Below are positions 1-29,346 of a stretch of 30,323 nucleotides of DNA, piece by piece; the stretch's first letter is position 1; every line of letters begins with the position of its first letter. Both the position numbers and the translations under genes were made by a program. Source of the DNA: a virus; IMG/VR virus record IMGVR_UViG_3300032562_000129, positions 1 to 30,323 of that record. The stretch is one strand, 5' to 3'. Below the pieces are notes generated by a model, which was not told the origin of the DNA, did no database searches, and saw nothing but the letters and a program-made list of their open reading frames with translations.

Positions 1-239
1 GTTGCTCCAATTAATTGAAGTGCAGCATAGATGGATTGATTTTGTGACGCAGTGCTTGAAGCACCATTCAAGTAAGTTAGAACTTGATTACTTGAAGTAA
101 TTGATACTTGTTGGTAACCAGCAATCGCCTGTTCTAAGATATACTGAAAGTTATTGTTTGTGGTTGCACCCCAGGTTCCAGCCTGGTCCCCAGTACCCAT
201 TAACTGAATTCTAAGATCTTGTGAATATGTACTTGACAT
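1..239 (-). CDS. Tail fibre-like protein, N-terminal part (cut by window edge)
   Basis: The reading frame starts at an ATG at 239 and stays open to base 1, so only the first 79 residues are present. The start has an AAGGGG ribosome site 4-5 bases upstream, just after the stop of the repeat-protein gene. The early residues contain GTGDQAGTWG followed by TTNNN. I associate this motif with the N-terminus of phage tail fibre or fibre-attachment proteins, often written as G-T-G-x-x-x-G-T-W-G-x-x-T-N. It continues the fibre and adhesin block to its right. The family is recognised by motif only, and nothing can be said about the missing C-terminus. Confidence 0.65.
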   Translation of the reverse strand, partial: MSSTYSQDLRIQLMGTGDQAGTWGATTNNNFQYILEQAIAGYQQVSITSSNQVLTYLNGASSTASQNQSIYAALQLIGA

Positions 240-251
240 TTTTTCCCCTTA

Positions 252-3200
252 CTAAGTACTGTTGTTAACCGCTTGCCATCCTGCTGACTGCGCAGGCGCT
301 CCACCAAAAGTATCAGGCCAACCAGCAGATTGAGCTGGCGCACCGCCGCCACCTGTAGGCCAACCAGCAGACTGGGATGGCGCGCCACCATTACCTGTAG
401 GCCAATCAGCGTTTTGCACGTTCACCACTGTCCCAAAGCCTGTCTCATCCATTGTCTCAATTGATTGAAAATCTTCAACAATCGAAAGCGCTGTTGCAAC
501 CGATATGAAAACAGCATCACCCATGGACATGCCATCTGTGACGTTCCAAATTACAATCAAACTTAAAACATCTGCAAGTGTAATGGTTTCTGTTACATTA
601 GCATAGAATTTAGTTAAATTTGATTCAGTCTCAGCCCACCCAGCGTTTTCAGTTATGCTCGCAATTGCAGCTAAATTTAAGTATAACGGCGCATCATAAA
701 TATTGTACGATTCTTCGATTGAATTAACCCAGTCCCACCTTGTCGCATTTGTATCTGCGTACTGGGCATCTTCGCTAACACTCAAATAGTATATAAAGTG
801 CAGGTCTGAAGATTCAGCAAATTGTTGGCCTTCTGTAACGGAACCGGCAAATCCAGCAGAAACAAATACTGTGTCTCCCCATTTGGTGTCTTCAGTGATT
901 GACAAATTAAGGGTGGCAGTATTTGACTCCGAATCCGCCAATTGGTTGTCTTCAATAATACTTAAGAAGTACAAAAACTGAAGGGCCGAGAAATCTGTGA
1001 ACTGTTGGTCTTCAGTAATCGACAAATCAAGCGTCGCGTTATTAGATTCAGTATCTGCATACTGAGCATCCTCAAAAACAGAAACATAAAATTCACCAAG
1101 AACGCTTTCTGTGTCAGCTAGTTGGGTATTTTCAGATACTGATATGTTTAGTGTTGCAGTGTTTGATTCTGCATCCGCTAATTCATTATCTTCAGTAATA
1201 CTTAAGAAGTATAAAAACTGAAGAGCTGAAAATTCTGCGGGTTGGTTGTTTTCAGTAATAGAAGCTACAAAAGCGTTTGATGTAGACGAATTATCGTTAT
1301 ATTGGCTGTCCTCAGAAATTGAAACGTTGAATTCCCCAAGCACGTCTTCAGCATCTGCCCATTGAGCATTTTCTGTAACACTAAGAAAATACAAAGAATT
1401 AATTACGTCGGTTTCTGCAAACTGTTGGTCTTCAGTAATTGAATCGGTGTAGAAACTAATGTTGAACTCGGTTTCAGCTAGTTGGTTGTCCTCAGTAATG
1501 CTAAGGAAATACAAGAAGTTAAGAGCTGAAAAATCTGCGAGTTGTTGAGCTTCAACAATTGAAGCGCTATATGCGACTGCATTTGACTCAGTATTGTTGT
1601 ATTGTTGGTCTTCAGTAATACTGAGGAAGTACAAGAATTGCAGCGTTGAAAAATCTGCAAACTGTTGGTCTTCAGTGATTGAAAATGGGAATGTGTTTAT
1701 ATTAGCTTCAGTCTCAGCTAATTGATTGGCCTCAGTGATGCTGAAGAAATACAGGAACTGAAGCGCTGAAAAATCTGCGAGTTGTTGGTCTTCAGTGATT
1801 GATACATTGAGGTTTGCAGTATTAGACTCAGAATTGTTGTACTGTTGATCTTCAGTAACACTAAGGAAATACAGGAACTGAAGCGATGAAAAATCTGCAA
1901 ACTGTTGGTCTTCAGTGATTGAAGCAGTGAATTGATTGCTACTAGACTCCGAGTCGCTATATTGACTGTCTTCCGAGATTGATACATTAAGCGATGCAGT
2001 ATTTGACTCTGAGTCATCTACTTGCAACCCCTCAGTAATAAAAAACTGTAAAAGCTCTTGGAATGAATTTGAAGCTATAAATCCAACATCTTCAGCTGCT
2101 GTGAATAGAATAACAGCAAATGTTGTTGCAGCTTCAGCCCAAGCAACGTCTTCAGATACAGACGCTGCAAACGAAGCGGTTATGGTTTCCGATTCAGCCC
2201 AATTTGCGTCTTCGGAAATACTTAAGGCAATACTGTTGCCAGCAGAATTAGAATCAGCCCAAGCAACGTCTTCAGATACAGACGCTGAAAAATAAATTGT
2301 AAAAGACTCAGACTCAGCCCAACCCGTGTTTTCAGACCTGCTTAGTGGGAAGTTAGCCGTTGCGGAATCTGATTCAGCCCAATTTGTGGGTTCTGAGATT
2401 GATACACTTAACGTTGCAGTATTGGTTTCAGAATCAGCCCAGCTAGCATCTTCTGAAATAGATTCAGAAAACTCAGCGGCTAAAGACTCAGAATCAGCCC
2501 AACCAGTATTTTCTGATATAGATACAAAATAAGCTTCGATTAAAGATTTAGTATCAGCCCAGCTAACATCTTCTGATGTACTAAATACAAAGCTAATACT
2601 TGCAGATTCTGAATCAATCCAACCAACGCTTTCTGATACAGACAAAGAGAACGCTTCCGAAATAACTCGGGTATCGTCCCATCCCGCATTCTCTGATATA
2701 GATACAAAGAATACTTCTGATATAAATTCAGATTCAGCCCAGCCAACATTCTCTGATACAGATACAGAAAATATTTCCGCGACAGATTCAGCGTCGGCCC
2801 AACCAGCATCTTCTGTTGTACTAAACCTAAAACTAATACTTGCAGATTCTGACTCCGCCCAATTTGTATTTTCAAAAACACTAAAAGAAAAAACAAACGC
2901 AGCCGAATCCGTTTCAGCCCAACTTGCATCCTCAGATCTGCTTAGCGGGAAATTAGCTGTTGCTAAATCTGTTTCAGCCCAGCCAGCATCTTCGGATTTG
3001 CTGAGCGGAAAGTTTGCAGAAGCTGAATCTGTTTCAGCCCAACCAGCGTTCTCTGATGTGCTAAATAAAAGACTAAACGTTCCCGTTTCAGATTCAGCCC
3101 AGCCAGCGTTTTCTGAAGTACTAAATAAAAAACTAAATGCGCCTGACTCGGTTTCAGCCCAACCAGCATCCTCTGATGTGCTAAATAAAAGACTAAACGT

Positions 3201-3314
3201 TCCCGTTTCAGATTCAGACCAACCAGCGTCCTCCGAAATACTAAGAGCGTAGTTAGTACTTGTTTTTACTAATGCCGCAAACGGCGTTTGGGCGAATGCG
3301 GAGGTGCCGAACAT
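252..3314 (-). CDS. Giant 20-residue tandem-repeat virion protein (putative fibre or adhesin)
   Basis: This 1020-residue protein starts at an ATG with a GGAGGT site 7 bases upstream. After a 24-residue N-terminus (FAQTPFAAL) come 42 units of exactly 20 residues, then about four irregular units. Units 1-19 follow S-x-S-E-[DN]-x-x-W-[AS]-[ED]-[ST]-[ED]. Units 20-42 mostly replace Trp by Gln plus Phe, Tyr or Leu (TEDQQFAD), and several carry the hydrophobic block SALQFLYFL, which falls in every second unit between 23 and 29. The C-terminus has three 14-residue units of the type GWPTGGGGAPAQSA. The protein is acidic, with no signal peptide, membrane segment or enzyme motif seen. It sits among fibre genes, so a long repetitive fibre or adhesin is the likely role by context. 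I do not recognise the repeat as a named family. Confidence 0.8.
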   Translation of the reverse strand: MFGTSAFAQTPFAALVKTSTNYALSISEDAGWSESETGTFSLLFSTSEDAGWAETESGAFSFLFSTSENAGWAESETGTFSLLFSTSENAGWAETDSASANFPLSKSEDAGWAETDLATANFPLSRSEDASWAETDSAAFVFSFSVFENTNWAESESASISFRFSTTEDAGWADAESVAEIFSVSVSENVGWAESEFISEVFFVSISENAGWDDTRVISEAFSLSVSESVGWIDSESASISFVFSTSEDVSWADTKSLIEAYFVSISENTGWADSESLAAEFSESISEDASWADSETNTATLSVSISEPTNWAESDSATANFPLSRSENTGWAESESFTIYFSASVSEDVAWADSNSAGNSIALSISEDANWAESETITASFAASVSEDVAWAEAATTFAVILFTAAEDVGFIASNSFQELLQFFITEGLQVDDSESNTASLNVSISEDSQYSDSESSSNQFTASITEDQQFADFSSLQFLYFLSVTEDQQYNNSESNTANLNVSITEDQQLADFSALQFLYFFSITEANQLAETEANINTFPFSITEDQQFADFSTLQFLYFLSITEDQQYNNTESNAVAYSASIVEAQQLADFSALNFLYFLSITEDNQLAETEFNISFYTDSITEDQQFAETDVINSLYFLSVTENAQWADAEDVLGEFNVSISEDSQYNDNSSTSNAFVASITENNQPAEFSALQFLYFLSITEDNELADAESNTATLNISVSENTQLADTESVLGEFYVSVFEDAQYADTESNNATLDLSITEDQQFTDFSALQFLYFLSIIEDNQLADSESNTATLNLSITEDTKWGDTVFVSAGFAGSVTEGQQFAESSDLHFIYYLSVSEDAQYADTNATRWDWVNSIEESYNIYDAPLYLNLAAIASITENAGWAETESNLTKFYANVTETITLADVLSLIVIWNVTDGMSMGDAVFISVATALSIVEDFQSIETMDETGFGTVVNVQNADWPTGNGGAPSQSAGWPTGGGGAPAQSAGWPDTFGGAPAQSAGWQAVNNST
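282..407 (-). repeat. Three 42-bp coding repeats (14 residues each) at the repeat-protein C-terminus
   Basis: Three in-frame units encode W-P-x-x-x-G-G-A-P-x-Q-S-A-G. They differ from the 20-residue units upstream and form a Gly/Ala/Pro-rich tail ending in GWQAVNNST. Confidence 0.8.
723..3242 (-). repeat. 42 in-phase 60-bp tandem coding repeats
   Basis: The period is exactly 60 bp (20 codons) across 2520 bp without a phase break. Roughly 2103-3242 encodes Trp-type units and 723-2102 encodes QQ-type units. Some QQ-type units are nearly identical at DNA level: the stretches around 1640-1685 and 1880-1925 share a long run through 'aaatctgcaaactgttgg'. That suggests recent duplication or gene conversion. 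Neighbouring Trp units are more diverged. The protein-coding phase and variable third positions rule out a CRISPR array. Confidence 0.9.
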
Positions 3315-3329
3315 TTACGTACCTCCTAT

Positions 3330-4415
3330 TTATGAATGTGAATATACAGGTATACCGCTAGAATTATATCCAACTATAACTATTTTTGAACCATCTGATG
3401 CAGCCCCAGTAACAGTCACAGTGTTGGTAGCTTGCACAACAACGGCAGCGGACCAAGTAGAACCCGTGTTACTTGAATAGCTATATACAGGATAACTACT
3501 AGAATTTATCCCAATAGCCACCCAATACCCAGTGCCAGAAACGCTGCAATAAACAAGTTTAGACCAAGTAACACCGCTAGGAAGTGCTAATGTTGGACCG
3601 CTGAAACCGCCAGAAGCACCCACACTTACAACATAGCCGTTAGACGAGATTGCCATTTGGGTACCACTTGAGTATCCATTATTTGTTGCGGCTACCATAG
3701 GAGCCACTGCGGTATTTGAGTTTATTATCGCAGGCGCAGTAAATGTGGAATAGAGAGTTGTTTGCGTGTAATACACATAACCCGTTGATGGGCTGTTTCC
3801 ATAAAATATACTTCCACGAGTACTTGTGGGTGTTCCACAATTAAATGTGTACGCGGTCGACGAGATAGCTGCCCAGCTTCCAGCAGTGCCACTGAATCCA
3901 CTTTGAACAAAGTATGGCAGCCCGTTAGAACTACCACGACCTACAAAACCCGATCCAGAAGCAGAATTAGTAGCAACCGTTGGTGTAACTAAAAAAGCGT
4001 TAGAAATAATAGATGATGATGCTACAAAACTTGTTCCGCCATTACTTGTATATATGTATTCCCCAGTACCCGTAGCAGTAGCTCCAAAAACTGCCATGTA
4101 ATTAGTAGTTGTACTGGAGTTTTGGCTAACGCCAGTCATGTTGGGTAACTGAACAGACCCAACAGTTGCAGGTGTTGTCCAAGTAACACCGTCAGCCGAA
4201 CCAGCCCATGAAGGTAAATTACCGCTACTTCGACCGCCAATAACCCATCTACCATAATATGGGTTATAGCTAATACCGCACAAATAGTTGACGGTACCAC
4301 TACCGTTCACAGCTGAAAAATTTGTAAAAGTAAACAGGCCCGGTACAACGGCAGCGGCGCCTGCAAACCCATATCCTCTTGCTGCAGCGTTTCCGGCGGT
4401 AATAATCGTTGGCAT
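3330..4415 (-). CDS. Beta-propeller-like tail adhesin with Asp-box-type repeats
   Basis: The 361-residue protein starts at an ATG preceded by AAAGGG. It is rich in Ser, Thr, Gly and Tyr. It contains recurring segments of the form S-x-D/N-G-x-x-W, such as SADGVTWTTP, TSNGGTSF and SSNTGSTW. These resemble the Asp-box (BNR) turns of sialidase-like propellers. Between them lie repeated strands such as GYVVSVGASG and KIVIVGYNSS. No sialidase catalytic set is visible, so a binding role is more likely than catalysis. It lies 11 bases downstream of the long tail-fibre gene, as expected for a receptor-binding or fibre-tip protein. The fold is inferred from spacing and motif only. Confidence 0.55.
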   Translation of the reverse strand: MPTIITAGNAAARGYGFAGAAAVVPGLFTFTNFSAVNGSGTVNYLCGISYNPYYGRWVIGGRSSGNLPSWAGSADGVTWTTPATVGSVQLPNMTGVSQNSSTTTNYMAVFGATATGTGEYIYTSNGGTSFVASSSIISNAFLVTPTVATNSASGSGFVGRGSSNGLPYFVQSGFSGTAGSWAAISSTAYTFNCGTPTSTRGSIFYGNSPSTGYVYYTQTTLYSTFTAPAIINSNTAVAPMVAATNNGYSSGTQMAISSNGYVVSVGASGGFSGPTLALPSGVTWSKLVYCSVSGTGYWVAIGINSSSYPVYSYSSNTGSTWSAAVVVQATNTVTVTGAASDGSKIVIVGYNSSGIPVYSHS

Positions 4416-4426
4416 CCGATTACCCT

Positions 4427-6421
4427 TTAAAACTGAGTTTGTGAAGCAAGTACAGTATATGTAGGCGTACTTGCAGTTTTAATAATGGTAAAAGTATATA
4501 CGTCAATACCGCTCGCATACCCTTTTGCAGGCGCAGACCCACCCTGCCAATACACTGTCACACCAGAGGTGCTTCCATCAATTTGAAAACCCGTTTGGTA
4601 ATAACTTGCACCACCAGAACCTTGTGTAATTAATAAAGCACAAGTGGTTGACTGTCCAACTGCCAAAGCAGAATTTAAAGTTGTACCGCTACTAAAAGAA
4701 ACGTTGAGTGTCCATGAAGTAGATGTTGCAGTTTGAAAATACAACACGCTTCCGCTTTGTAAGTAAAAAGTATCAGTAGACGTTGGGGCGCCAGATTGAA
4801 CGTTAACTGTCTCAGCGGTGTTTAGTAACACGGAAGCAAAAGTGCTTGTCGATCCACTAAATGTTTGAGTGGCAGTCCAAGTATTTGCAGCGCTTAACAA
4901 AGGCACTGAAGTCCATGTTGGAGGGCTTGCACTACCAGCAGAGACCAAAGCTTGGTTGGAACTACCATATGACCCGTTAAATGCAAAAGCCCCTGACGTA
5001 TTAATAGTCATTGCATCGGTTGTATTGGTATTACCATTAATCAAAAAATGAATTGGATTACTGCTCCAAGTACCAATAACTAAGTCGCCACCACCAGATT
5101 CAATAAAGTTAGCATTAGCTAAACTAAAAGAATTATTAGGATAACCTGCTGCTGAGTAGCTATAAGCAGACGAGTTAGTACCCATCTCCATATAGTATGT
5201 AGCACCGTAGTTATTATTACCCACGGCATAAGCTGCATATGCTGTATTTGCGCTGCTGGTGTTGACCAAACTTACGTTTAAGTTTCCTGTGTCGCCACCA
5301 GAAAATGATGCAACTTGACCGCTAAACGAATTGCTGTACCCACCGCTACCAACGTTTAACCAACCAACGCTGGTAGCGGTATTTGCCGTATATCCTGTGA
5401 GAGATAAACCTGTTGATGTATAGGTAAATGCAGATGATGATGCATGAGGTGAAGTGCCATTACCGTAAGGTATGTACCCTGCAGTTAATGATGTTGTGCC
5501 AGTACCACCTGCTGCAACAGGTAAAGTACCTGCTGTTAAAGCTGAGCTGGATGTTGAATAAAGGGCATAGTTTGCAGCAGTAAACGTAGTTAAACCTGTA
5601 CCCCCGTTTCCGGTATTTAAAGTACCAGAAAGAGTTACTGCCCCACTTGTTGCAGTACTAGGGGTAAAGCCTGTTGTCCCAGCAGAAAAAGTAGATACAC
5701 CGCTACTAGAAGCTGGCTGCCAACTCGCTGTTGTACCGTTTGAAGTAAGTACGTAAGTGCTAGTGCCAATTCCAAGTTTTGTTGCACTGTTTGTACCATT
5801 TCCAATGATCAAATCACCCGTAGTGGTGATTGGTGAAAGAGCATTAAAAGCAGATGAAGCAGTTATTTGACCCGTTCCACCATTTGCAATTGGCAAAGTT
5901 CCAGTTACACCTGTTGTTAAAGGCAATCCTGAAGCGTTTGTAAGTGTTCCAGAGCTTGGTGTACCCAAAGCACCGCCATTGACAACAAACGCACCACTAG
6001 AACCTGTGTTAACTGCTAGCGCGGTTGCTACGCCTGTACCCAAACCAGATACGCCACTTGATATGGGTAAACCCGTTGCATTAGTTAGCGTGCCTGAACT
6101 GGGTGTACCAAGAGGGCCACCTGTATAAATAGCGTACTCAGCAGGGTATGTAATAAATACGTTAACTGTTCCACTAAATGTAACTACGCTTCCAGAATTA
6201 CTGGACGAAAGAATGGTTGTTCGCGCGAGTGCGCCCGTAGTGTACGTGCCGAGTCCCACCTCCCAATTGCCGCTACCATCAGTAGCCGCATAATAGGTTG
6301 TGTTTCCGCTTGTTAATGCGGTAAAGCTTTGATAGCCAGCAACAGCGGACCCAAGAGTAAAACTACTCGTTGTGTACGTTGAGCTGGTTACTTGGACTCT
6401 ATCGGCAAGTTGAAGAGCCAT
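4427..6421 (-). CDS. Tail fibre protein with Gly/Thr/Ser-rich repeats
   Basis: This 664-residue protein starts at an ATG with a GGGGT site. An N-terminal domain of about 110 residues (DGSGNWEVGLGTYTTGALAR, then TYPAEYAIYTGG) is typical of phage fibres. It is followed by degenerate repeats around GTPSSGTLTNATGLP, TTGVTGTLPIANGGTGQ and TLPVAAGGTGTTSL at residues 100-320. These motifs are common in fibres of environmental tailed phages. The C-terminal half is beta-rich and ends in a possible head domain (GSGGASYYQTGFQIDG). It should form the trimeric shaft between the virion and the adhesins encoded next to it. Confidence 0.75.
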   Translation of the reverse strand: MALQLADRVQVTSSTYTTSSFTLGSAVAGYQSFTALTSGNTTYYAATDGSGNWEVGLGTYTTGALARTTILSSSNSGSVVTFSGTVNVFITYPAEYAIYTGGPLGTPSSGTLTNATGLPISSGVSGLGTGVATALAVNTGSSGAFVVNGGALGTPSSGTLTNASGLPLTTGVTGTLPIANGGTGQITASSAFNALSPITTTGDLIIGNGTNSATKLGIGTSTYVLTSNGTTASWQPASSSGVSTFSAGTTGFTPSTATSGAVTLSGTLNTGNGGTGLTTFTAANYALYSTSSSALTAGTLPVAAGGTGTTSLTAGYIPYGNGTSPHASSSAFTYTSTGLSLTGYTANTATSVGWLNVGSGGYSNSFSGQVASFSGGDTGNLNVSLVNTSSANTAYAAYAVGNNNYGATYYMEMGTNSSAYSYSAAGYPNNSFSLANANFIESGGGDLVIGTWSSNPIHFLINGNTNTTDAMTINTSGAFAFNGSYGSSNQALVSAGSASPPTWTSVPLLSAANTWTATQTFSGSTSTFASVLLNTAETVNVQSGAPTSTDTFYLQSGSVLYFQTATSTSWTLNVSFSSGTTLNSALAVGQSTTCALLITQGSGGASYYQTGFQIDGSTSGVTVYWQGGSAPAKGYASGIDVYTFTIIKTASTPTYTVLASQTQF

Positions 6422-7066: not shown

Positions 7067-7504
7067 TTAAGAAATTGTAATGATTGCCGATGAACTTGTC
7101 GGCGCTGGAAATTGAACCGTGAAAGTACTGTTCGAAGTCTTATCAGACCCAAAGTCAAGAACGCAAACTGTTGGGTTTGTTGTTCCATTCTTTAAGTATA
7201 TCAAAGCTCCCCTTGCAGTGAAAGCACCATTCCACACAGCGTTAGCAAATGAAATATACGCAATCTGCGTATTTACATCTACTGCTGGTACCTGGTTGAT
7301 GGTCAATAACTGACCACCTGCTGTGTAGCCTGTTGCAGACACTTCACCTACGGAAGTATATGCTGTTGTGTTTTGGTTGAGTGTTGCTGCGTTGGTGTAC
7401 AACGCAATGTAAAACGTCTCCGTCGTGCCCGTGTTGAAGTTATACACCCCACTCATTAAGCCCGATAAAAACGTATTACATACCCAGTTACCCGTAAAAG
7501 CCAT
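7067..7504 (-). CDS. Virion structural protein, tail-associated
   Basis: A 145-residue protein beginning MAFTGNWVCNTFLSG, with an AGGAA site before the ATG. The pattern ETFYIALYTNAATLNQNTTA, then GEVSATGYTAGGQ, then a mixed beta domain, is one I associate with small phage tail or baseplate-type proteins of unknown detail. It is followed by the 207-residue protein after 9 bases and preceded by the connector-like gene after 12 bases. A structural role is inferred from context. Confidence 0.6.
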   Translation of the reverse strand: MAFTGNWVCNTFLSGLMSGVYNFNTGTTETFYIALYTNAATLNQNTTAYTSVGEVSATGYTAGGQLLTINQVPAVDVNTQIAYISFANAVWNGAFTARGALIYLKNGTTNPTVCVLDFGSDKTSNSTFTVQFPAPTSSSAIITIS

Positions 7505-7516
7505 TGTTTGTTCCTA

Positions 7517-8479
7517 TCAGGTAACAGGTTGACGATATTGACCAGACCTGTAGGCATCCTGTCTTTCAAGGCCATCGCCAAGACGTTTAGCTTCCATAAG
7601 GGATTCTTTGTACTTAGTCTCATACAAAGCAAGCAAATCTTGTTCGCCCTTCATGAAAGTGTATGCTTCAACCAAAGAACCATACAAAAGTACAGAGTCA
7701 AAATTATCCCCAAGCCAGCTAGTACCCGTTGCATTACCAACACTAATTACACTTGCGGTAAAACCTGAACCGCTGGCTCCAATATATGATGAAGCTACGG
7801 ACAACGTATCTCCAACAATATACAAAGCTCCACCGCTGGTAACTGTCACAGATGCAACAGCACCGGCTGTTACTTTTATAATCGCAATACAAGAGTTACC
7901 ATTACCACCTGTGAGAGGCACGTCATAATAAGTTCCATTTACGTACCCCGAACCCGCCGTGACCAAATTCAAAGATGTCACATTACCTTGGATAATTGAT
8001 GGCGGGTAGTAGTAATAATTTAACTCAGTAGCGTACGCTTGATCTGGAGTTGGCCCAAGAATAAAACTAAGCTCGTTAATATTATTTGATTGGGGGCCAA
8101 ACAGCGCATAGTACTGCGGCATTGAATAGTAAAGAGACCCAGTATTTGGGTAAGCCTCACGTATAAAATTAACATCTTTATTAATTAAAAACGTATAGGT
8201 GTTGGCATTAGGGCCTGTGGTTGGATATACAGCCAAAGAATACACTGACAAAAAGTCATCTGGGCAAGACAAATACCCAACCCCCGCAGTTAAAGTACCT
8301 ATTTTGCTAGACCTTAAACTGGGGAACTGAATCGTGTTGTAAATACCTAGTTCGGCTTGCTCAATGAACCTGTTAATCTGCGAAGTAGTAGACTCAGTTG
8401 TTCCATCCGCCAAATAGACGACTGGAAACTGATTCTCAGTGTACGACTGTATTGCAGTTACAAGTTCAGTGTAAGTCAC
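7517..8479 (-). CDS. Tail connector/adaptor protein with an inserted beta domain
   Basis: This 320-residue protein starts at a GTG that overlaps the upstream stop (GTGA), with AGAGGA 8 bases before it. The N-terminus (MTYTELVTAI, then RFIEQAELGIYN) and the C-terminal block (TSWLGDNFDSVLLYGSLVEA, then FMKGEQD and YETKYKESL) match the helical and beta layout of short-tailed phage adaptor or tail-tube-A-like proteins. Residues about 164-251 (TAGSGYVNGTYYDVPLTGG through TGT) look like a separate beta domain spliced between YYYYPPSI and TSWLGDNF. The protein likely joins portal to tail. Adaptor family membership is inferred from pattern. Confidence 0.65.
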   Translation of the reverse strand: MTYTELVTAIQSYTENQFPVVYLADGTTESTTSQINRFIEQAELGIYNTIQFPSLRSSKIGTLTAGVGYLSCPDDFLSVYSLAVYPTTGPNANTYTFLINKDVNFIREAYPNTGSLYYSMPQYYALFGPQSNNINELSFILGPTPDQAYATELNYYYYPPSIIQGNVTSLNLVTAGSGYVNGTYYDVPLTGGNGNSCIAIIKVTAGAVASVTVTSGGALYIVGDTLSVASSYIGASGSGFTASVISVGNATGTSWLGDNFDSVLLYGSLVEAYTFMKGEQDLLALYETKYKESLMEAKRLGDGLERQDAYRSGQYRQPVT

Positions 8480-10330: not shown

Positions 10331-10729
10331 TTAAGCTGCTGGTGCAGTGGTGCCTGTTGCTGCAGGTTCTTGTACTGCGGCTGGTGCAGTGGTGTCTGTT
10401 GCTGCAGGAAGTGCTGCAGGTTCTTGTACTGCGGCTGGTGCTGCAGGCACCACGTCAGGCGTAGGAGCAGGTACAGGGTCCACAGGAGCAGGAGCAGGAG
10501 CAGGCTCAATAGGGCTATTAACAGTAGCGCCTTCAGGTCCATAAATGGTGAGAACCATAGGATCTGCATCTGGGGCTCTAGTTGCATCCATATGTGCTTT
10601 AACATCATCTAACAACGCCTGTGTTTTGGATTGAACTCCACCATAGTTTATACGTTGGAAGTTTGCCATATGGTCAAGCAATTGATACAAATGCTCGGCT
10701 TCGGCTTCTAGTCTGGCTAATAAACTCAT
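10331..10729 (-). CDS. Coiled-coil protein with Pro/Ala-rich repeated C-terminus
   Basis: The 132-residue protein overlaps the previous gene by ATGA and has GAGG 8 bases before its ATG. Residues 1-60 form a likely helical segment (MSLLARLEAEAEHLYQLLDH). From about residue 75 it is almost wholly Pro, Ala, Val and Thr, with repeated units TTAPAAVQEPAA. Such tails are usually flexible linkers. It lies directly upstream of the connector gene. Function is unknown. The Pro/Ala tail is encoded by short direct DNA repeats and may vary in length among relatives. Confidence 0.65.
   Translation of the reverse strand: MSLLARLEAEAEHLYQLLDHMANFQRINYGGVQSKTQALLDDVKAHMDATRAPDADPMVLTIYGPEGATVNSPIEPAPAPAPVDPVPAPTPDVVPAAPAAVQEPAALPAATDTTAPAAVQEPAATGTTAPAA
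10338..10433 (-). repeat. Two direct coding repeats (42 and 54 bp) in the Pro/Ala-rich tail
   Basis: Units 10338-10379 and 10380-10433 begin and end with the same sequence and differ mainly by a 12-base insertion. A partial third copy follows. They encode the TTAPAAVQEPAA units. Confidence 0.75.
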
Positions 10730-26516: not shown

Positions 26517-26545
26517 TTGACATAGTTATTATACTGTGTTACAAT
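26517..26545 (+). promoter_or_regulatory. Right-arm promoter P3
   Basis: Consensus TTGACA (26517-26522), 17 bases, then TACAAT (26540-26545) with an extended TG-T. Closely matches P2. It drives the moxR-like gene and those after it. Confidence 0.88.
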
Positions 26546-26548
26546 GTT

Positions 26549-26578
26549 ATATATAGTAGAAATTCGTCTGCTATATAT
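26549..26578 (+). other. 5'-terminal stem-loop of the P3 transcript
   Basis: ATATATAGTAGA and TCTGCTATATAT pair over up to 12 bp with one G-U around loop AATTCG. A transcript starting near 26552 would keep about 9 of these pairs. Confidence 0.65.
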
Positions 26579-26583
26579 TTTTC

Positions 26584-26616
26584 CTGACAAATGTCAGATT
26601 TTATTAGAGGAGTTAG
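26584..26616 (+). repeat. Dyad copy 5 and shared 33-bp leader segment
   Basis: Core at 26584-26597, identical through 26616 to the P2 leader. It ends 2 bases before the moxR-like ATG at 26619. Confidence 0.92.
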
Positions 26617-26618
26617 AA

Positions 26619-27683
26619 ATGTCAGAAGTTAGATTCGGTAAAACAGTTACCCTTAAGCAAGCAGCCACATTGATTCGCACCAATCCTGAGACTCGATTCT
26701 GTCTATTAGGCGAGCCAGGTATCGGTAAGAGTTCATTGCTCAAAGACGTTGCCGAGGGGCTTGGATATGAGTACGCATACATTGACGTACCCAACATGGA
26801 CTTAGGCGACATTGCGATGCCAGTCATTGACCACGATACCAAGACTACTAGGTACTATCCTAATGCTAGGTTCAAGTTGCATGAGGGCAAACCATTGGTA
26901 ATTATGCTCGACGAGTTTACCAAGGGTGCTGACCCAGTAAAGAATATGCTACACCCAATGCTTGAGAAGGCTAACCCACGATGCGGTGATGTGTCATTGC
27001 ATAAAGACTGTATTGTGTTTCTGACTGGTAACCTTAGCTCTGACGGAGTAGGGGACACGATGAAAGCGCACAGCAGAAACCGTCTTGTGCCTATTCAAAT
27101 ATCCAAACCAACTGCTGACGAGTGGTTATCATGGGCTATCAACAAAGGCATCGAGCCCGAGGTGTGTGCATGGGTGTCTCGGTTCCCACAGGTTCTAGCA
27201 TCGTATACCGATGGTGGACAAAATGATAACCCCTACATCTATAACCCCAAGAAAACAACTGGAGCATTTGTATCTCCACGTTCACTTGAGACTGCTTCGA
27301 ATATCGTGAAGTCTCGCAGAGAAAATGATGCCGACTCTGTTATATCTGCATTGTCAGGTGCAATCGGTGAAGCTGGTGCTCGTGATATGCAAGCGTATAT
27401 CGAGTTCGCAGATCAACTGCCAACATGGGAGCAAGTTATAGCTACGCCAACAGTCACAAAGGTTCCCACATCACCTGGGGCTTGTGCGATTACTGTGTTC
27501 TCTGCTATCAGTAGAGTGGACAAAAACACCATTACTCCATTCATGGACTACTTAGAGCGGTTCGATGCCGAGTGGCAAGCCGTGTTCGCTATCAACATTG
27601 CGAAGACTCCAATTAAGCAGAGCATTGCGTTCTCATGCAAAGCGTTCGCTGATTGGGTTGCTAAGAATCAAGACTTACTGTAA
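26619..27683 (+). CDS. MoxR-type AAA+ ATPase
   Basis: I chose the ATG at 26619 (MSEVRFGKTV) with AGAGGAG 6 bases upstream; the longer frame from 26544 would read through the promoter leader. The 354-residue protein has Walker A GEPGIGKS at 31-38, Walker B VIMLDE at 94-99, sensor-1 FLTGN with N138, and HSRNR near 151-155 with the arginine finger. MoxR ATPases work as ring chaperones with a VWA-domain partner (RavA-ViaA, NorQ-NorD, CbbQ-CbbO). The VWA gene three genes downstream is the probable partner. The substrate is unknown. Confidence 0.88.
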   Translation: MSEVRFGKTVTLKQAATLIRTNPETRFCLLGEPGIGKSSLLKDVAEGLGYEYAYIDVPNMDLGDIAMPVIDHDTKTTRYYPNARFKLHEGKPLVIMLDEFTKGADPVKNMLHPMLEKANPRCGDVSLHKDCIVFLTGNLSSDGVGDTMKAHSRNRLVPIQISKPTADEWLSWAINKGIEPEVCAWVSRFPQVLASYTDGGQNDNPYIYNPKKTTGAFVSPRSLETASNIVKSRRENDADSVISALSGAIGEAGARDMQAYIEFADQLPTWEQVIATPTVTKVPTSPGACAITVFSAISRVDKNTITPFMDYLERFDAEWQAVFAINIAKTPIKQSIAFSCKAFADWVAKNQDLL

Positions 27684-27685
27684 AG

Positions 27686-27699
27686 CTGACAAATGTCAG
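27686..27699 (+). repeat. CTGACAAATGTCAG dyad, copy 6 (supplies a start codon)
   Basis: Core two bases after the moxR-like stop. Bases 27693-27695 are the ATG of the next gene, so the right arm encodes Met-Ser. Confidence 0.92.
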
Positions 27700-27920
27700 A
27701 ATTATTTGATTACTCTATAGATGGTTGGATAACACAAACACCATACTTAATGGAGCTATACAGAGCGGGTTACTCCGTGGGTATAGTTGGCGATGAGTAT
27801 TTGCTTGTGCGTGTACCACACCAAGACTCGGGTAGCGTTAAGCCCGAGACGATAGCCAAATTCAAAACCAAAGAGGAGTTAGCAAATATGGTTAGGTTAC
27901 TTATTGACTCAGGATCCTGA
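27693..27920 (+). CDS. Unknown small protein (75 aa)
   Basis: The ATG is inside dyad copy 6 and the TGA stop is inside copy 7. There is no good ribosome site, so translation is probably by re-initiation from the moxR-like stop 9 bases earlier. The acidic product (MSELFDYSIDGWITQTPYLM, then GYSVGIVGDEYLLVRVPHQD, then FKTKEELANMVRLLIDSGS) looks like a small alpha/beta domain. No family is recognised. Lying between the AAA+ and VWA genes, it may serve that pair. Confidence 0.65.
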   Translation: MSELFDYSIDGWITQTPYLMELYRAGYSVGIVGDEYLLVRVPHQDSGSVKPETIAKFKTKEELANMVRLLIDSGS

Positions 27921-27930
27921 CAAATGTCAG
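27917..27930 (+). repeat. CTGACAAATGTCAG dyad, copy 7 (stop and start in one element)
   Basis: TGA at 27918-27920 ends the 75-aa gene and ATG at 27924-27926 starts the next, both within the 14-base core. Confidence 0.93.
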
Positions 27931-28175
27931 AAGTAAGAACTGCATGGGTTAGACGACAGACTGGCATTGATGAAACATCGAACGGTTTGTATTTTACAGG
28001 TAAGTACGAAGTGGTAGTTACCGAATCTGGTTGGGGGCAAGTAGGCAAATTAGTATCAATTCACGATACGAAAGACGAAGCCCTCAACATGTGCTTACTG
28101 ATAAACGGTCGCACAAAACAAGAAGTAACTGAAGAAATTAGTTGGTATGGAGGAAATTATGAACGAAGAACGTAA
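27924..28175 (+). CDS. Unknown small protein (83 aa)
   Basis: The ATG is in dyad copy 7, with AGGA 9 bases upstream. The start MSEVRTAWVR is like the MoxR start MSEVRFG at both protein and DNA level, probably because both carry the dyad-type start context. The product is a small alpha/beta protein (LYFTGKYEVVVTESGWGQVG, then IHDTKDEALNMCLLINGRT). Its end overlaps the next gene by 17 bases. No family is recognised. Confidence 0.65.
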   Translation: MSEVRTAWVRRQTGIDETSNGLYFTGKYEVVVTESGWGQVGKLVSIHDTKDEALNMCLLINGRTKQEVTEEISWYGGNYERRT

Positions 28176-29346
28176 GTTGCAGAAGTGCAAAATCGCACTA
28201 ATGCGTAACCCAAAGTTTGCTTTATTGCAGGGCGTGATGATGATTGGTCGTACGCACGTACGTGATGACGTATCAAGTGCATGTACCAATGGTCGTGACG
28301 AGATCTATGGTAGGCAGTTTGTCAAAGAGTTATCCGATGCTGAGTTATGTTTTGTGATTGCTCACGAGACTGCACACAAAATGTATCGACACTTAACAAC
28401 GTGGACTAAGTTGCATGAGATTGATCCAGCATTAACCAATGCGGCTTGTGACTACGTTATTAACCTGATGCTCTGTGATCTGGATCCGACTGCGAGTGTC
28501 ATTGCTATGCCACGTTTCAAGAGCGGACCGAACAAGGGTAAGTTCATGGGTCTTATCGACGAGCGGTTCAAAGGCATGAACACCAAGCAGGTCTTTGACA
28601 TACTCAGGGAGGAGCAAGGTGAGGGTGGTGACGATGAAGGGTTCGACATTCACGACTGGGAAGGTGCGAAGAATCTAACCGACGAGGAGAAGAAGGTTCT
28701 TGAGCGTGAGGTTGACCAAGCTATTCGCCAAGGACTCATGGCACATCAGAAGAATGTGGGTAGTGGCGCAGGTGGAATGGATCGTGAGCTTGGGGATCTT
28801 ATGCAACCCAAAGTGGACTGGCGAGATCTACTGCGTGAGTTCGTTAAGTCTACATGCAAAGCCAAAGACACATCGTCATGGCGTCGTGTCAATCGTAGGT
28901 TCTTGGGCACAGGTACGTACATGCCAAGCATGATTGGACAGAAGGTCGGTCACTTGGTAATTGGTATCGACACATCAGGCTCTATCGGTAACGATGAGTT
29001 GGCTGAGTTTTTATCTGAGGTTAAAGCTATTGCCGAGGAGGTTAATCCTAGCGCAGTAGATCTAATCTATTGGGATAGCGAAGTAGCATCGCACGAGACG
29101 TATGATGAATCAACAGTATCCACAATCATCGAATCAACAAGGCCCGCTGGCGGGGGCGGGACTTCACCTAGTTGCGTATCCACATATCTCAACGAACAGA
29201 AGATCGTACCCGAGTGCGTCATTATGTTGACCGATGGTTATGTGGGCGATGACTGGGGTAGTGACTGGACTGCACCAACCATATGGGCAATCACACAAGC
29301 CAACCACGCTACTGCGGACAACGGCAAAACAATTTATCTTAATTAA
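28159..29346 (+). CDS. VWA-domain protein with HExxH metalloprotease-like N-terminus
   Basis: I chose the ATG at 28159, with GGAGG 5 bases upstream. The 395-residue protein has H69-E-T-A-H73, then N94-A-A-C-D98-Y-V-I-N, the layout of the putative-metallopeptidase/VWA family (DUF2201-type). After an acidic linker comes a VWA domain with a complete metal site: D271-T-S-G-S275, T335 and D359 in MLTDGYVGDDW. VWA proteins partner MoxR ATPases, and the ATPase gene is three genes upstream. The pair may remodel or cleave a host or phage target; the target is unknown. No membrane segment is seen. Confidence 0.85.
   Translation: MNEERKLQKCKIALMRNPKFALLQGVMMIGRTHVRDDVSSACTNGRDEIYGRQFVKELSDAELCFVIAHETAHKMYRHLTTWTKLHEIDPALTNAACDYVINLMLCDLDPTASVIAMPRFKSGPNKGKFMGLIDERFKGMNTKQVFDILREEQGEGGDDEGFDIHDWEGAKNLTDEEKKVLEREVDQAIRQGLMAHQKNVGSGAGGMDRELGDLMQPKVDWRDLLREFVKSTCKAKDTSSWRRVNRRFLGTGTYMPSMIGQKVGHLVIGIDTSGSIGNDELAEFLSEVKAIAEEVNPSAVDLIYWDSEVASHETYDESTVSTIIESTRPAGGGGTSPSCVSTYLNEQKIVPECVIMLTDGYVGDDWGSDWTAPTIWAITQANHATADNGKTIYLN

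Follow-up and report, generated by a model that had tools for sequence, protein, structure and literature searches.

The window analyzed here is a complete IMG/VR virus record of 30,323 bp. The features of the repeat gene and of the tail-module genes around it, all on the minus strand, are as follows.

3-239, minus strand: start of a fiber-type gene (PHROG match, phrog_31104), truncated by the contig end and downstream of the repeat gene
252-3314, minus strand: gene for the 1,020-aa repeat protein, with a reading frame open throughout
255-416, minus strand: C-terminal 14-aa repeats (GGAPAQSAGWP), residues 967-1020; TRF period 42 at 315-410
417-716, minus strand: degenerate units 43-46 with small indels, plus linker, residues 867-966 (20-residue layout)
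717-2036, minus strand: units 21-42, mostly Gln-type (TEDQQFAD), residues 427-866 (20-residue layout)
1437-1916, minus strand: units 23-30, hydrophobic (SALQFLYFL) alternating with polar; TRF 120 and 240, unit distances 2 and 4 enriched
2037-2096, minus strand: unit 20, transitional, residues 407-426 (20-residue layout)
2097-3236, minus strand: units 1-19, Trp-type (SEDAGWAES), residues 27-406 (20-residue layout)
3237-3314, minus strand: N-terminal cap MFGTSAFAQTPFAAL..., residues 1-26 (family alignments)
3322-3327, minus strand: Shine-Dalgarno sequence AGGAGG, 7 nt before the ATG of the repeat gene
3330-4415, minus strand: gene for a 361-aa protein without a family match, upstream of the repeat gene
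4427-6421, minus strand: 664-aa tail-fiber-like gene (PHROG match, phrog_5906 at the C terminus)
7067-7504, minus strand: phrog_644 tail-module protein (PHROG match)
7517-8479, minus strand: SU10-type adaptor protein (PF24175, E = 6e-19), used as the synteny anchor

The repeat gene thus lies downstream of the adaptor and phrog_644 genes and adjoins fiber-type genes. The gene set of the window, which includes terminase, portal, capsid protein, and SU10-type adaptors, is consistent with a short-tailed phage like HTVC023P and HTVC027P. The portal, at <60% identity, resembles those of Pelagibacter phages HTVC023P and HTVC027P, Planktothrix phage Pag-Yong1, Roseobacter phage CRP-901, and others. 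The 361-aa gene had no match among Pfam and PHROG families and no relative in a peptide-pattern scan of viral contigs; its product carries repeated "GW...W" and "DG.TW" type motifs and is possibly a beta-propeller. Proteins with RCC1-like 50-aa repeats are encoded in the region of this gene in loci L062, L065, and L070. Elsewhere in the window, an AAA-type ATPase-like ORF (379 aa) is paired with a VWA/metallopeptidase-like ORF (399 aa) at 26544-29346 on the plus strand, both assigned by eye; in Pag-Yong1, genes annotated as ATPase and VWA-like protein are close together. At 10331-10729 on the minus strand lies the gene of a small protein with a repetitive Pro-Ala rich tail and a 27-bp repeat (10354-10447).

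Residues 27 to 866 of the repeat protein divide into exactly 42 units of 20 aa without a single indel, as the preliminary description of this DNA had stated. Self-identity was 0.34 at lag 20 and 0.37 at lag 40, versus a maximum of 0.119 among 500 residue shuffles over lags 5 to 60. The array does not end with unit 42, however; four degenerate units with indels of 1 to 2 residues follow (residues 867 to ~947), giving a total of ~46. The unit consensus is [ST]-E-[DN]-x-x-hydrophobic-A-[DE]-[ST]-x-[ST]-x-x-x-x-[FYL]-x-x-S-[IV], with the conserved residues mostly on even-numbered positions. Position 2 is Glu in all 42 units, position 8 is acidic (Asp or Glu) in 39/42, and position 16 is aromatic or aliphatic in 42/42; the corresponding numbers in units from relatives were 97, 81, and ~97 of 100. 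The acidic positions, which had been suggested to bind metal ions, are conserved. As described before, two unit classes occupy opposite ends of the array. Trp is at position 6 of units 1 to 19 (units 32 and 40 also have Trp), and Gln is at position 5 in most of units 21 to 42, with units 35 and 40 as exceptions. The hydrophobic [SAT]L[QN]FLYFL unit recurs at 23, 25, 27, and 29, the alternation already described, with additional copies at 34 and 38 and a variant at 41. The protein has 168 Asp and Glu residues, 10 Lys and Arg residues, no Cys, and only 4% Gly.

We ruled out an assembly artifact because the longest exact DNA repeat in the gene is 47 bp and the units have diverged in DNA. Between-unit identity by codon position was 0.50, 0.55, and 0.35, with the lowest value at the third position, and more than half of all matching residues (3,207/5,935) are encoded by different codons. 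Some units had been described as near-identical in DNA; this holds only for a few pairs (at best 55/60 nt, units 1 and 3), mean pair identity being 46.5%. A 40-residue super-repeat had also been described, and it is present in the window gene: among units 21 to 42, identity at unit distances 2 and 4 exceeds that at 1 and 3, and TRF finds periods of 120 and 240 bp. However, 39 relatives had no excess identity at even lags, only a smooth fall with distance. The super-repeat is therefore peculiar to the window protein and reflects a history of 120- and 240-bp duplications rather than a structural rule of the family.

Direct tblastn searches of phages with the window protein, at E thresholds of 1e-5 and 10, gave no relatives, nor did scanning viral contigs with peptide patterns from the full protein or its C terminus. 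These searches were empty because proteins encoded at the same place have the same layout but low identity, and relatives were found only via synteny of the adaptor gene and via a DNA pattern for the cap. A similar protein is encoded in the same tail module in 35 of the 40 contigs that were selected by the adaptor gene and extend at least 3 kb downstream; in one of the remaining five (L009) the member is cut by the contig end. A few members of the clade seemingly have no repeat protein within the sequenced stretch. In the relatives' loci the adaptor, phrog_644, and fiber-type genes are same-strand neighbors, and in most loci a fiber-type N terminus lies directly downstream of the repeat gene. 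phrog_31104 has a same-strand match in 72 relatives, usually adjoining the repeat gene, and phrog_5906 has matches in 90 loci.

The cap motif M-F/Y-G-x3-F-A-x-x-P-F, present in the window protein (MFGTSAFAQTPFAAL), is conserved across family alignments, and the DNA pattern for MFGxxxFAQxPFA matched at least 120 viral stretches. The cap-pattern matches listed, together with the earlier loci, amounted to 116 distinct ORFs, 107 of them complete; four short ORFs among the 116 (L129, L138, L148, and L172) were rejected as chance matches to the pattern. Among the matches listed, the top lag was 20, 40, or 41 in 96/116 ORFs and 22 or 44 in 10/116, and 99 of the 107 complete ORFs had a Trp-rich C terminus. 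Most members therefore have the same layout, namely, a cap, an array of even period (mostly 20, some 22, rarely 18), and Trp-rich 11-aa C-terminal repeats. There are two main unit classes in the family, SE/TE-type (SITENxxLADS) and TG-type (ALTGVSASGxVGTV), and members of both have the cap, C terminus, and period in common. The proteins are strongly acidic (median pI of 4.05, ∼1% Lys plus Arg). Median length is 282 aa among the matches listed, and the window protein, at 1,020 aa, is the longest complete member, followed by one of 618 aa; an incomplete member has at least 792 aa. Searching with DNA patterns of the two unit types (Trp and QQ) recovered one family member (L211, via its C terminus) and three unrelated loci.

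The C-terminal 14-aa repeats of the window protein have only a Q-S-x-x-W core in common with the 11-aa W-x-x-I-[DN]-[DN]-x-Q repeats of the family, of which they appear to be the counterpart. The core of the C-terminal repeats, [EQ]-x-x-x-W, resembles positions 2 to 6 of the Trp-type unit, and SEDAGWA motifs occur in the C-terminal repeats of L020 and L211; the C-terminal repeats may be shortened units. Extra cap-like motifs (FAxxPFAG) were seen between C-terminal Trp repeats in L050 (16765-18270), L081 (16036-17034), and L211 (6174-7172), so that the cap looks like a module that can be reused.

Searching 84,980 cellular genomes with the cap pattern gave one match, in which the reading frame breaks soon after the cap, so the family looks restricted to phages. 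This match (L207; JALRFH010000180.1, a Halieaceae MAG) continues into unrelated sequence after ∼44 residues and is probably a chimeric or broken viral fragment.

Copy number ranges from ∼4 to 46 units between lineages but is constant within them, and close relatives have proteins of equal length in most cases. Two pairs, L091/L097 and L146/L165, are each separated by a single clean gap of 60 aa, that is, three units; L168 and L188 differ in length by 59 aa, and L156 and L173 differ by one 11-aa C-terminal repeat. These clean gaps in close pairs indicate that array length changes rarely and by whole units. Recombination had been suggested as a means of altering fiber length, and whole-unit changes do occur, but they are rare, and length is fixed among close relatives. 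Fixed length within lineages fits a structural length and not frequent slippage.

The repeat had not been assigned to any named family, and we found no credible match for it in Pfam, PHROG, or the PDB, nor a description of such a repeat family in the literature searched. The sole Pfam model above its cutoff, PF17728 (34.1 versus 27 bits), is an unrelated HTH domain with no single stretch passing, and we regard the match as spurious. Matches to the Pfam families BsuBI_PstI_RE_N, BppU_N, and HupF_HypC are repeat or composition matches, and those to the PDB entries DotG (phmmer, 0.002) and Crov588 (profile, 7e-5) are low-complexity repeat matches. Weak PHROG "tail fiber" matches (E of 1e-4 to 4e-4) may be compositional. 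One of the relatives, L160, has a weak HMM match (E = 1e-4) to phrog_28766, "tail fiber protein," and over the same stretch a weak tblastn match to the fibers of Synechococcus phages S-CBP3 and S-CBP4, which phrog_28766 may represent. Those fibers resemble the window protein in having short Ala-Asp repeats (VTTAKLAD), but they are T7-like, have a period of 10, and have neither the cap nor the Trp repeats. We rejected them as relatives; the matches fall on the 10-aa VTTAKLAD repeats and are probably due to composition.

Trimeric shafts in which the count of short beta repeats determines the length are known from the adenovirus shaft (triple beta-spiral) and the T4 gp5 spike (triple beta-helix). 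The general idea is alike, but the published periods differ; the adenovirus shaft repeat has a period of 15, and identity at lag 15 in the window protein is 0.057, the background level. An annotated member of the family is a 376-aa hypothetical protein (WJZ48131.1) of phage DSL-LC04 (OR003939), a metagenome-assembled genome (PMC10611076). Its gene adjoins a phrog_644-like gene and precedes a fiber-type gene, and the protein has tandem repeats, W.V.DDSQ repeats at the C terminus, and an aromatic N-terminal cap that is repeated (WG..WG). It differs in having a period of 22 and TG-type units (VTGVQATGxVG).

AlphaFold2 monomer predictions contained strands only and were of low reliability. For nine units, with an alignment of disjoint segments, the best model had a pLDDT of 76.6 and the other four had values of 36 to 49; a relative of 300 aa, modeled from an alignment of 32 sequences, had a pLDDT of 45.8 and a pTM of 0.34. 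Because AlphaFold2 yields confident but unrealistic solenoids from 20-residue repeats (Pratt et al., PMC11795689), the single good nine-unit model is weak evidence. Foldseek found no PDB match below an E value of 0.3 and no viral model below 0.0046. Mutual information between units peaked on the diagonal, but common descent confounds this signal. At position 20, one of 20 positions tested, neighboring units matched with a frequency of 0.426, compared with 0.339 in order-shuffled proteins (z of 5.6). Because this coupling exceeds that of the order-shuffled proteins, it suggests that successive units stack in register. The even periods and the conserved even positions would fit the continuous alternation of an extended strand.

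The preliminary description had proposed a solenoid or stacked fiber. The in-register coupling, which suggests stacking, would be compatible with either; AlphaFold2 did not support a monomeric solenoid, as four of the five models fail. We consider it unlikely that the protein is a monomeric beta-solenoid with 20 residues per coil and stacked acidic ladders, perhaps stabilized by calcium, that forms an adhesin-like spike. The one good nine-unit model, the coupling at position 20, and the conserved acidic positions 2 and 8 would agree with such a structure, but the full-length relative failed even with 32 homologues, the PDB search returned no fold match below an E value of 0.3, the known bias applies to repeats of exactly this length, Gly is scarce, and the repeat protein has no Pfam match to RTX or pentapeptide repeats. 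The poor monomer models are compatible with an obligate oligomer.

Most likely the repeat protein serves the adsorption apparatus as a shaft or spacer, because it has no enzymatic motif and its gene has fiber-type and adaptor genes as neighbors; the PHROG tail-fiber matches point the same way, subject to their possible compositional origin. We put at roughly 60% the probability that it is a structural protein of the tail-fiber module of an HTVC023P/027P-like phage, with the array as a shaft whose length is set by the number of units. The short hydrophobic N-terminal cap and the Trp-rich C-terminal repeats would form the two ends of the protein, and the array of 20-residue units, presumably beta-structured, would be a stiff, acidic shaft between them. 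Since each unit would add a fixed step, the unit number would set the length of the shaft, and the window phage, with ∼46 units, would have the longest one found. The protein would assemble as a homo-oligomer, probably a trimer, trimerization being a guess by analogy with other phage fibers. Located in the virion, the shaft would present or space the receptor-binding fibers encoded next to it, for attachment to the cell.

It is rather improbable that the protein is instead a surface or spacer protein of the virion, such as a decoration of the capsid or tail with affinity for extracellular matrix. An acidic, repetitive, phage-restricted protein of variable length could serve in this way, but the gene lies among fiber-type genes downstream of the adaptor and not among capsid genes, and the conservation of cap and tail points to fixed sites of attachment. 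Several genes nearby are unassigned, which would leave room for a nonvirion role, for example, as a fiber-assembly chaperone or an internal ejection protein; such a role is very improbable, since an array of 4 to 46 units without an enzymatic motif would be an unusual chaperone and fixed length within lineages is what is expected of a structural part.

Repetitive fiber proteins are a known kind, within which the repeat family described here is new. As a tentative extension of the shaft reading, the family might have a fibrous beta fold not described before. Units of even length (18, 20, or 22 residues) but markedly different sequence (SE-, TG-, and Trp-type) would be interchangeable steps between common end caps, and each lineage would then set its own shaft length, with changes by whole units, often by three. 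In the libraries searched, neither a name nor a family model nor a structure exists for this tail-module protein, which is nearly universal in what seems to be a common phage clade. The family is a natural test case for the known solenoid bias of AlphaFold2, since its repeats could plausibly form a true solenoid or be falsely modeled as one. With a strict period, unit types that can be exchanged, and changes in length by whole units, the family would make fiber length, and the effect of that length on adsorption, directly testable.
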